DNA from: Ogataea parapolymorpha DL-1
Lineage: Eukaryota; Ascomycota; Pichiomycetes; Pichiales; Pichiaceae
Direction of reading: 5' to 3'
Assembly: GCF_000187245.1 (NCBI RefSeq)
Contig: NC_027861.1
Span: 682,001-746,000, forward strand
Length of the DNA: 64,000 bases
Shown here: one piece after another, positions 27,876 through 31,300 of the stretch
Position numbering within the stretch: the stretch's first letter is position 1
Layout: each line of letters opens with the position of its first letter
Notes under the pieces: generated by a model
Seen by the model: the letters and a program-made list of their open reading frames with translations, nothing else
Databases searched by the model: none
What the model was told of the DNA's origin: nothing
Program-made: the position numbers and the translations under genes

Positions 27876-28958
27876 TCATTTCTGCTTGCGATATGTTTTC
27901 CACTGTTCCATCGTTGCCAGCACGCGCTCGTAGTTCTGCTCCATTTCTGAGAGCCGATTTCGCAAACTAGCAATTTCCTGGTCCTTGTCTGTCTGGTTAT
28001 TCTTTTTGAACTTGAACGTGTCGTCAATGCTGTCGCCATTCAGAGGCTTGAGAAGATCAAATAGTATCAAATCGTATTTTTGTAGGTCGAAATTATGGTG
28101 ATCTATGGCCAGAAGCTCACTGTCGGTCGGAATAAAGGTGGATGGCACCTTACTGTTGGAGTTCAGCTGGCCAAACGATTTTAGGAATTTCTGTAGCCTC
28201 AATAGCACACCGACCAGTTTGTTTAGATCGTGTTGCAAATGCGAATTTTCTTCGACCAACGACAAAAAACGGTCGTTGTCGAATTTCTGTCTTTTCGGCT
28301 CAGCTCCCGCGTCGTCTCTTGGACTGGCTCTGCGCTTGTTCATGTTGGATAGCTTGCTTTCGAGTCTGTCCACTTCCATTTCGTTTCTGCGTAACTCTCG
28401 TTTCACCTCTTCTGAATATAATTTAAATGTGCGCTCCTGCTCTTTATTTTTGGCGTTGACATTATTGAGCATGGTTTGGTAATGCTTAGCTTGCAGATCG
28501 GACTTGATCTTATCCAATTGTAAAGACTGGATGTTTCTTTCCTTCTCATCGACCTTGTTGTTGAGTCTTTCCACTTCGCTTTTGAGCAGTTCTATCTCGG
28601 CGTCCTTATCAGCCATTTTTTTTAGTGCGGTTTCTTTAAACTGTTTAGAGATCTCTGCCGAGTTCAGCAGCGAGTAGATGATGTTCATTATGTTCCTGTC
28701 ATTTTCGTACACCTTTTCGCTGATCTCGAAGTTTTCTGCATTCTCCGGAATCAATTGAGAGCTATCCAGACTCAAAAGGAGCAGCTGTCTCAGTTTATTT
28801 GGTTTGTTTGAGAAATAACCTTTGGCGGAAAGCTTCTGGTTGACATACTGCGCAGCATTTTTAATGGACATCACATCCACAGGCTTCAAAGCGGGCTCGG
28901 CCTCTTTGGATGTTGGCTGCTGGTTCTCCAGCTGCGATTTTTCAAATATTTCTTCCAT
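27876..28958 (-). CDS. Coiled-coil protein with an ADIP-like domain (possible Msd1/SSX2IP relative)
   Basis: The 360-residue protein has an N-terminal helical segment 'SIKNAAQYVNQKLSAKGYFSNKPNKLRQLLLLSLD' and 'NDRNIMNIIYSLLNS'. A long coiled coil follows (residues about 110-215, heptads rich in Glu/Lys/Leu/Asn), then a basic patch ('KRRASPRDDAGAEPKRQK') and a second coiled coil to the C-terminus. The order (YLN-type helix, 'II..LL' segment, long coil) resembles the ADIP family, whose members SSX2IP and fission-yeast Msd1 anchor microtubule minus ends at spindle poles. The match is by pattern only. An ACGCGT (MCB, G1/S) element lies at 29007-29012, 49 bp before the ATG at 28958, which would fit a cell-cycle gene. 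The telomerase RNA gene diverges from it. Confidence 0.5.
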   Translation of the reverse strand: MEEIFEKSQLENQQPTSKEAEPALKPVDVMSIKNAAQYVNQKLSAKGYFSNKPNKLRQLLLLSLDSSQLIPENAENFEISEKVYENDRNIMNIIYSLLNSAEISKQFKETALKKMADKDAEIELLKSEVERLNNKVDEKERNIQSLQLDKIKSDLQAKHYQTMLNNVNAKNKEQERTFKLYSEEVKRELRRNEMEVDRLESKLSNMNKRRASPRDDAGAEPKRQKFDNDRFLSLVEENSHLQHDLNKLVGVLLRLQKFLKSFGQLNSNSKVPSTFIPTDSELLAIDHHNFDLQKYDLILFDLLKPLNGDSIDDTFKFKKNNQTDKDQEIASLRNRLSEMEQNYERVLATMEQWKTYRKQK

Positions 28959-29039
28959 GTAGATAAAGTAAATAAATAAACAAAAACTTTATCTCTGGCC
29001 GCGTCGACGCGTCGCCAAAAAAAACATTTGACATTTTAT

Positions 29040-29733
29040 GTTTGTTGGGATACTGATGACTGCCAGCGGTCTACACGAATTTGATAGGTGATTTGCGAGG
29101 ATTGGCAGTCTGCGAGCATGACGATGTGGATAATCAGCTGCCGTCGTGTGTCTCAGACCATCGCACCATATCGCATAGCTGGGACACTCAGGGTTCTTCA
29201 CTATGCGGTGTTCACGCCACCCCGCCACCCCTCGTCAACAAATGGAGACGTCCAGAAGAACTACAGGGTGCTGTTGGAGTAGCAGCGTCCTTCCGTTGCC
29301 AGCTAGAATGCGAAGTGAGCTTCAGACGGAGCAAGTGCTCATACATTGCTTCTTCGCCAATTCCAGCCCGTTGGCAAACCGGACGTCTCCAGCCATGTGT
29401 TCTGACCACTATGGCCGATCTACAGGTTGTCGTTTCTTCATGAGCTTGTTTTCCGTTCCTGGGACTGGCTGGTCAGAATACGAATACCGGAAAAAAAGCT
29501 TTTTCTTTGGTCTGCGACGTCAGCATGCTGTCGGTCCCACTAACCACCACGGTCTTTCACTGCACCATCGCTTCAAGGACCGTCTCTGCACGGATCAATA
29601 CCCGCGGGTATGTCGAGAAGTCACGGTACATTGAGAAGTACGGCTGTGGTGGCTATGTGCGGGCCTCCCCGCGAATTGCCCTTCTTTTCCGTCGGTAGGC
29701 GTTGGCAAAGATCGTCGTATCCTGCTATTTCCT
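29040..29733 (+). ncRNA. TER: Telomerase RNA (TER); 5' end approximate
   Basis: A 920-bp interval without a credible protein gene holds the hallmarks of a yeast telomerase RNA. The template CGCCACCCCGCCACCCC (29215-29231) is two exact copies plus one base of the complement of GGGTGGCG, the known telomere repeat of Ogataea polymorpha. Three bases upstream, an 11-bp helix (29168-29178 with 29201-29211) forms a template boundary element. Downstream, TGGAGACGTCC (29243-29253) pairs perfectly with 29381-29391, a core-closing helix. Near the 3' end, CCACCAC (29544-29550) can pair with GTGGTGG (29646-29652), and ACGGTC (29549-29554) with GACCGT (29578-29583), possible alternative arms. A 5' splice site at 29734 and TACTAAC at 29764 mark spliceosomal 3' processing, so the mature end is probably 29733. 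The 5' end is only bounded by the neighbouring gene. Confidence 0.88.
29215..29231 (+). other. Telomerase RNA template
   Basis: This 17-nt C-rich stretch equals (CGCCACCC)x2 + C, long enough to specify one octamer and realign on the next. It sits immediately 3' of the boundary helix ending at 29211. The sequence is seen directly; the telomere repeat of O. polymorpha (GGGTGGCG) is established knowledge. Confidence 0.88.
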
Positions 29734-29770
29734 GTGAGTACCGCTTCTTGCCGAGATTTCGATTACTAAC
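29734..29770 (+). promoter_or_regulatory. Spliceosomal 3'-end processing signal of telomerase RNA
   Basis: GTGAGTA (29734-29740), a usable 5' splice site, is followed by a perfect TACTAAC branch point (29764-29770) only 35 nt away, then a T10 tract. No coding exon follows: the next AG is about 29813-29815, in ARO8 leader sequence. In fission yeast, Candida and filamentous fungi the first splicing step alone releases mature telomerase RNA. The arrangement here fits that mechanism. Confidence 0.7.
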
Positions 29771-29878
29771 ATTTTTTTTTTCATGCATTTTAATATGTTG
29801 GGGTGTATATGTAGATTAAAATAATCTCGAGGAAAATAGATATTTAGTCATTTTTTCTTCTGTCTCCAGTGCTTTATT

Positions 29879-31300
29879 ATGACCGTGAAAGATTTGAGCC
29901 ACCATCTGTCCAACGAAGCCAAGCGCAGAAACGCCTCTGCCCTGAAAACCGCGTTCAAGTATTTCGGCAAGGACAACATTGTTTTCCTCGGCGGAGGACT
30001 CCCGCTCTCTGACTACTTCCCTTGGGACAAGATCACTGCCACTTCTCCCGCACCTCCTTTTGCAAATGGAATTGGTGCCAAGCCTACCAACGAGGCCGAC
30101 ACCGTGATCACCGAGGTCGGAAAGACTACAGACTTGGAGTTTGATATTCCTCTTGCCAGATCTTTGCAATACGGACACACCGAGGGCCAGCCAGAGCTGC
30201 TTGATTTCATCAGAGAACACACCGAAATAATCCACAAAATTCCTAACAGTGAATGGGACGTTATCGTCACCGTGGGGAACACTCAATCGTGGGAGGCTTC
30301 TTTGAGAACTTTCTGTAATCCCGGAGATTTCATCGTCGTCGAAGAATACACCTTCCCTTCCGCTATTGAAACCGCTAGAGCCCTGAGCGTCAACTTTGCT
30401 CCTGTGGAAATGGACGACAAGGGAATCATTCCAGAGAAATTGGATCAGCTATTCACAGAATGGGACCCTGCCAAGCCAAAGCCTAAGCTGCTGTACACTA
30501 TCGGTACCGGTCAAAACCCTACCGGATCGTCTCTTTCCAACGAGAGAAGAAAAGCCATCTACGATATTGCTTGCAAGCATGACTTTATCATCATCGAGGA
30601 CGAGCCATACTACTTCTTACAAATGGACGATTACAAGAAAAACTCTGACGAGCCTGCGGCCGTCACTCACGAGGAGTTCCTTGCTGCGCTTGTGAAATCC
30701 TTCTCTTCTATGGACGTCGAGGGAAGAGTTGTCAGACTGGACTCGTTCTCCAAAGTCCTCGCTCCAGGAGCCAGACTGGGCTGGATTGTTGCTCAGAAGC
30801 CACTGCTCGAGAGATTTGTCAGATTGCACGAGGTCAGCATTCAGACAGCTTCTGGTTTCACGCAAACTTTGGTGTCCGGTCTGCTTGGAAGATGGGGCCA
30901 GAAGGGCTACATTGATTGGCTGATTGGCCTGCGGAAGGAGTACACCATCAAGAGAAACTTCACCATCGACAGTCTGTCCAAGCATATGCCATCTGTCGTG
31001 AAGTACGAGCCTCCTTTTGCTGGTATGTTCTTTACTGTGAAGATCGACGCTGCCAAACACCCCAAATTTGCTTCTGAGTTCGGTAAGGACCCATTGAAGG
31101 TGGAGGCTGCCATCTACGAAAAATCGCTGGAACAGGGATGTCTGATGATTCCAGGGTCGTGGTTCAAGTCGCCAAACTTCAAGGACCACAACTCGTCGGA
31201 AATCTTCTTCAGAGGCACCTATGCCGCCGTTGCTCTTGATAAGCTGGACATCGGATTGGAGAGATTTGGTAAGGCTGTGGAGCTCGAGTTCAGCTCCTAA
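29879..31300 (+). CDS. ARO8: Aromatic amino acid aminotransferase I (Aro8-like)
   Basis: The 473-residue protein is a PLP-dependent class I aminotransferase of the Aro8/kynurenine aminotransferase II group. These interconvert Phe/Tyr/Trp and their 2-oxo acids and also act on 2-aminoadipate in lysine synthesis; cytosolic. Visible motifs: 'IVFLGGGLPLSDYFP', 'LQYGHTEGQPELLDFIREH', 'TVGNTQSWEASLRTFCNPGD', 'YTIGTGQNPTGSSLS', 'IIIEDEPYYFLQ' and the PLP-lysine loop 'RLDSFSKVLAPGARLGWIV'. ATG at 29879 and normal length (S. cerevisiae Aro8 500). It follows the telomerase RNA gene on the same strand, with the RNA's splice-type 3' signal in its upstream region. Codon use is that of a well expressed gene. 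Confidence 0.92.
   Translation: MTVKDLSHHLSNEAKRRNASALKTAFKYFGKDNIVFLGGGLPLSDYFPWDKITATSPAPPFANGIGAKPTNEADTVITEVGKTTDLEFDIPLARSLQYGHTEGQPELLDFIREHTEIIHKIPNSEWDVIVTVGNTQSWEASLRTFCNPGDFIVVEEYTFPSAIETARALSVNFAPVEMDDKGIIPEKLDQLFTEWDPAKPKPKLLYTIGTGQNPTGSSLSNERRKAIYDIACKHDFIIIEDEPYYFLQMDDYKKNSDEPAAVTHEEFLAALVKSFSSMDVEGRVVRLDSFSKVLAPGARLGWIVAQKPLLERFVRLHEVSIQTASGFTQTLVSGLLGRWGQKGYIDWLIGLRKEYTIKRNFTIDSLSKHMPSVVKYEPPFAGMFFTVKIDAAKHPKFASEFGKDPLKVEAAIYEKSLEQGCLMIPGSWFKSPNFKDHNSSEIFFRGTYAAVALDKLDIGLERFGKAVELEFSS

Follow-up and report, generated by a model that had tools for sequence, protein, structure and literature searches.

Location and gene content of the locus

The window, the whole stretch of DNA that was analysed, comprises 64 kb of chromosome 6 (positions 682001-746000) of Ogataea parapolymorpha (Hansenula polymorpha) DL-1 (taxid 871575). 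In its middle part two protein-coding open reading frames (ORFs) are separated by 920 nt. The upstream, divergent gene (27876-28958, minus strand) encodes a protein of 360 aa with a PF11559 match, which is 98% identical to an O. polymorpha protein with the UniRef name autophagy-related protein 25. The downstream gene (29879-31300) encodes an aminotransferase (PF00155). Between these two genes, running rightwards from about 29045 on the plus strand, lies what is almost certainly HpTER, the gene for the telomerase RNA of DL-1. The predicted mature RNA is about 689 nt long (29045-29733); its 5' end follows from published numbering and its 3' end from a splice signal, both described below.

An earlier note on this DNA had placed a telomerase RNA gene on this strand, a reading that is borne out by the template, its match to the telomeres, the helices and the published numbering. 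The note had also called the locus hidden, a description that could apply to protein annotation at best. The gene has been published and studied in DL-1, where several studies deleted it. It is thus an already known gene and not a new one.

The 86 bp between the upstream gene and the RNA (28959-29044) form a divergent promoter region common to HpTER and the ATG25-like gene. This region contains ACGCGT (29007-29012), which we take to be an MluI cell-cycle box. With 7 copies of this hexamer in the 64-kb window, 0.009 copies are expected in 86 bp. In Saccharomyces cerevisiae, transcription of Tlc1 is reported to peak at the G1-S transition (PMC8801399).

The template matches the telomeres

The template sequence CGCCACCCCGCCACCCC is present exactly as the earlier note had it, at 29215-29231 on the plus strand, and comprises two repeats plus one base. 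It is preceded by A29214 and followed by TCG. No second copy of CGCCACCCCGCCACCCC was found on either strand of the 64-kb window, and the number of copies expected on both strands of the 8.87-Mb genome was 0.00023, 0.00008 and 0.00018 (Markov models of order 1, 2 and 3 of the window, respectively). A 16-mer of the template had 9 exact matches in the genome: besides the one at the present locus, there were 8 at the right termini of C4 and C7. Likewise, the 12-mer CGCCACCCCGCC, the first 12 template bases, had 11 exact matches, 10 at the same two chromosome ends and one here.

The telomeres at these two ends consist of GGGTGGCG repeats with some 7-base GGTGGCG units. Telomere repeats that disagree with the template had been named beforehand as a finding that would refute a telomerase RNA gene; at both assembled telomeres the repeats agree with it. 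The positions of these telomeres are in line with the statement that chromosomes VII and IV are the only ones with telomere sequence in this assembly, each at its right end (PMC6510891, as excerpted). A 23-base oligonucleotide for the VIIr subtelomere of DL-1 from the same paper had a single exact match in the genome, at C7:1515425-1515447. The earlier note had named O. polymorpha; the strain is O. parapolymorpha DL-1 and not O. polymorpha as now defined.

A scrap of telomere repeats, inserted without function at a repaired break, would look similar: 29215-29231 equals telomere DNA in the C-rich orientation, and two repeats could be captured by chance. We nevertheless consider such an interstitial tract extremely improbable. 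The sequence is the sole exact non-telomeric copy in the genome, and within the 920-nt gap between ORFs it is flanked by a boundary helix on one side and a core-type helix on the other. If the locus is HpTER, the loss of telomerase activity in the published HpTER deletions also speaks against an inert tract. Moreover, the published template numbering and the T-specifying base 5' of the repeats, as known from the excerpts cited below, fit a template.

As far as both extend, the two right telomeres (L001 1494-1572 and L006 1494-1563) have the same order of 8-base and 7-base (GGTGGCG) units, which suggests either exchange between the ends or an assembly effect. Only 8-base repeats occur in the template.

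Correspondence with the published telomerase RNA

Papers that cite it credit the description of HpTER to Smekalova et al. (2013, RNA 19:1563), in agreement with the earlier note, which mentioned a description of the H. polymorpha telomerase RNA. The citing papers, as excerpted, differ in its attribution. PMC12098377 and PMC5490237 tie the 2013 RNA to DL-1, whereas PMC6115765 assigns it to O. polymorpha and gives the O. parapolymorpha RNA as its own BLAST find from a close relative. Under either attribution, a telomerase RNA gene of O. parapolymorpha is in print.

In an excerpt of PMC7338525, the HpTER template is given as nucleotides 170-187, and a primer ending in GGGTGGCG was extended by up to 9 nt. 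The 9-nt extension of such a primer corresponds to 8 nt plus T. If nucleotides 170-187 are placed on the template region ACGCCACCCCGCCACCCC (29214-29231, plus strand), nucleotide 1 falls near 29045, which differs by 5 bases from the start at 29040 that the earlier note had proposed. In this register the template specifies one 8-base repeat and one T, in agreement with the published assay. In a register one base later nucleotide 1 would be 29046, but the ninth step would then be without T. An extra T has also been reported at chromosome 3' ends (PMC12098377, as excerpted), and A29214 would specify this dT.

No difference from published HpTER was seen in the features compared, as these are known via citing papers: the strain is the same, the template fits nucleotides 170-187 and no Sm site was detected in either. 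Judged by strain and template coordinates, the locus is very probably HpTER. For the published RNA, work by others in DL-1, as excerpted, has shown that it binds TERT, Est1 and Est3 but that Ku80 is not bound efficiently, and that replacement of nucleotides 190-480 leads to telomere shortening with loss of viability (PMC8820739). Deletion results in shorter telomeres, a deletion strain has been analysed by RNA-seq (PMC5490237) and intronic elements matter.

The earlier note had proposed a covariance search as a check, and this gave no match to the telomerase models of Rfam. At the gathering score the telomerase families were without a match in the window, and a relaxed search of 28960-29878 (up to E 5) returned only a chance match to sR12. 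TERT is present in the same genome, with the RNA-binding domain PF12009 at C6:316994-317377 (E 1.8e-36) in an open frame of 786 aa. Of two TERT primers published in 2012 (PMC3372993), the forward primer matches the TERT locus exactly and the reverse primer has 4 mismatches in 21 bases at the expected place; we take it that the latter was derived from another H. polymorpha strain.

HpTER has been studied before, so the locus adds little as a discovery. For the reading of raw sequence it counts as a clean success, because homology searches are described as having great difficulty in detecting yeast telomerase RNAs (PMC6115765, as excerpted). The by-products are a predicted 3' end, an explanation by spacing for cleavage without ligation and a protein record from O. 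angusta that is probably misannotated.

Predicted RNA structure

Both helices of the earlier note were recovered. The template boundary helix (29168-29178/29201-29211) is paired at all 11 positions, with two G-U pairs, and ends 3 nt 5' of the template; its pair probabilities are 0.56-1.0 in a single-sequence prediction. The downstream helix (29243-29253/29381-29391) has 11 of 11 Watson-Crick pairs, with 127 nt between its arms and a pair probability of 0.81-0.99. A third helix, of 13 bp (29396-29408/29470-29482), is predicted with pair probabilities of 0.23-0.95. Most of the template is unpaired in the predicted fold.

By criteria that were chosen after the helices had been seen, 5 of 5000 shuffles of 29155-29214 gave a helix of 11 or more pairs with its end no further than 5 nt from 29214, and 41 of 100 shuffles had one of 11 or more pairs (G-U allowed, span up to 60) anywhere in 29040-29815. 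Since helices of this kind arise so often, what is notable about the boundary helix is its position alone. By the same kind of criterion, 1 of 100 shuffles of 29040-29815 contained a perfect Watson-Crick helix of 11 bp or more (span up to 160).

The predicted RNA as a whole (29045-29733) had a minimum free energy (MFE) of -262.8 (z -4.2), which was reached in none of 60 shuffles; the antisense strand gave -238.6. For the core (29162-29395) the MFE was -82.4 (z -2.8, 2 of 200 shuffles as low), and the antisense strand was as good (-83.2). The 3' side (29540-29733), where a three-way junction region was tested, showed no excess of structure (z -0.18, 88 of 200 shuffles as low). All of these values come from folding programs that do not predict pseudoknots. 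A consensus Sm site, A-T(4 to 6)-G/A, was not found in 29045-29733, and an excerpt of PMC5490237 likewise states that no Sm site was detected in HpTER.

A related protein record in O. angusta

The RNA overlaps an ORF of 143 aa (29203-29634), for which a search of 5.8 billion proteins returned one homologue at E <=0.001. This is KL921_001082 of O. angusta, a 'hypothetical protein' of 191 aa, which as a query returned only itself. Aligned to 29072-29692 by a script that allows switching of frames, it falls into five blocks and one single residue, with 155 of 182 residues identical. The similarity extends beyond 29608 up to 29692, with 37 of 41 residues in 29570-29692.

This extent of identity is what a protein gene would account for, be it ORF 29203-29634 itself or a spliced gene like KL921_001082. 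The alignment, however, requires two frame changes and a skip of 69 nt (29177-29245); the skipped stretch takes in the entire template, a portion of the boundary helix and three bases at the start of the enclosing helix. In addition, there is a single relative, no Pfam family exceeded its cut-off for the ORF (a weak hit of 17.7, with a cut-off of 25 bits), and NCBIfam, at E 0.01, gave none for the O. angusta protein. A protein gene at this position is therefore scarcely credible in our view. The protein reading of ORF 29203-29634 was rejected, its Pfam match being below the cut-off and its only relative aligning in switching frames. Judged from the alignment, KL921_001082 is probably a telomerase RNA misannotated as a protein: a gene predictor would have made a protein out of a conserved non-coding RNA.

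The 3' end of the RNA

An excerpt of PMC5199203, and likewise one of PMC6115765, states that the 3' end of the H. polymorpha telomerase RNA is made by the first step of splicing. Mutation analysis is stated to confirm that downstream intronic elements are important for HpTER accumulation (PMC10003056, as excerpted). The earlier note had mentioned a splicing-type processing signal on the 3' side without coordinates. Candidates for such a signal are indeed present on the plus strand: the 5' splice sites GTATGT (29608-29613) and GTGAGT (29734-29739) and a perfect branch-point sequence, TACTAAC (29764-29770). The pair of GTGAGT and TACTAAC is no commoner in the genome than its reversed-pattern control (6 against 6). 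We searched the whole genome for GTATGT, GTGAGT or GTAAGT followed by TACTAAC after 18-48 nt. Including the HpTER locus, this gave 4 + 6 + 15 = 25 matches, against 4 + 6 + 10 for the reversed patterns. As these counts are similar, the splice pair is not significant by itself.

It is the spacing downstream of the branch point that sets the locus apart from most matches. At the HpTER locus the branch point is followed by ten consecutive T, and the first YAG has its G at a distance of 45 nt from the branch-point A. In the other 24 pattern matches this distance ranges from 5 to 114 nt; it is at most 16 nt in 20 of them and longer than 45 nt in two (48 and 114 nt). For 10 of the 24, candidate intron-like loci by a criterion set after the table had been seen (removal opens the frame, with at least 60 aa after removal and at most 15 aa without it), it is 5-13 nt. 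The 45-nt distance suits the published cleavage by the first step only.

Between the two candidate 5' splice sites we favour GTGAGT, so that the RNA would likely end at 29733. Its distance to the branch point, 35 nt, is near that of the other matches (29-59 nt, limits that are set by the search pattern). GTATGT is a good yeast 5' splice site and TACTAAC lies downstream of it as well, with the branch point 161 nt away; cleavage there, at 29608, would give an RNA of 563 nt. We rank this end second to 29733 and consider it unlikely, since the similarity to the O. angusta record runs on to 29692 and the site at 29734 has the more usual spacing.

Candidates for U1 and U2 are present in the genome. 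The U1 candidate scores 58.8 bits (Rfam cut-off 69.5) and begins with ATACTTACCT. Compared by eye, ATACTTACCT pairs with GTGAGTA with one G-U, and none of the exon bases CCT is paired.

Proposed mode of action and comparison with other telomerase RNAs

In the mechanism that we propose, the 3' end of the chromosome would pair with the 3' half of the template. Telomerase would copy towards 29215 and halt at the boundary helix, having synthesised one 8-base repeat and in some cases a final T from A29214. The RNA itself would come from a precursor in which the first step of splicing makes the cut, with 29733/29734 as the most likely site. Ligation would be slow because the next YAG is 45 nt beyond a strong branch point, and the 5' exon would be set free as the mature RNA. 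The exact 3' end and the reason why splicing stops are what we infer from the positions and spacing of the signals.

According to excerpts of the literature, TER1 of Schizosaccharomyces pombe resembles HpTER in that its 3' end is formed by the first splicing step only, with a strong branch point and a long distance from branch point to 3' splice site. In TER1 this distance is 22 nt; its length and the weakness of the 5' site contribute, among other features, to the arrest of splicing after step one (PMC5199203). The HpTER locus differs in its 45 nt, the ten T after the branch point and the lack of a consensus Sm site before the cleavage site. By analogy, splicing of HpTER may be halted by features like those of TER1. 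It is conceivable, if somewhat doubtful, that distance is the main cause of the arrest after step one in Ogataea (TACTAAC, ten T, no AG for 45 nt and a U1 that does not pair with CCT), and that HpTER is tied to the cell cycle through the ACGCGT box in the shared promoter.

Like the RNA predicted here, the telomerase RNAs of the Yarrowia clade (PMC6746865) combine a template and a boundary element with an enclosing helix, CEH2, on the downstream side of the template. By its position, the helix 29243-29253/29381-29391 resembles this core-enclosing helix 2. The Yarrowia RNAs differ in having another repeat and an Sm site.

The branch-point region also occurs in an oligonucleotide of a laboratory studying HpTER. 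In Table 1 of PMC8820739, as excerpted, dsrnd2antisense is listed as a 'random' control, and its first 33 bases are identical to 29753-29785, including the branch point. The remainder contains TCTAGA, so the oligonucleotide may be a cloning primer. TCTAGA would here presumably serve as an XbaI site.
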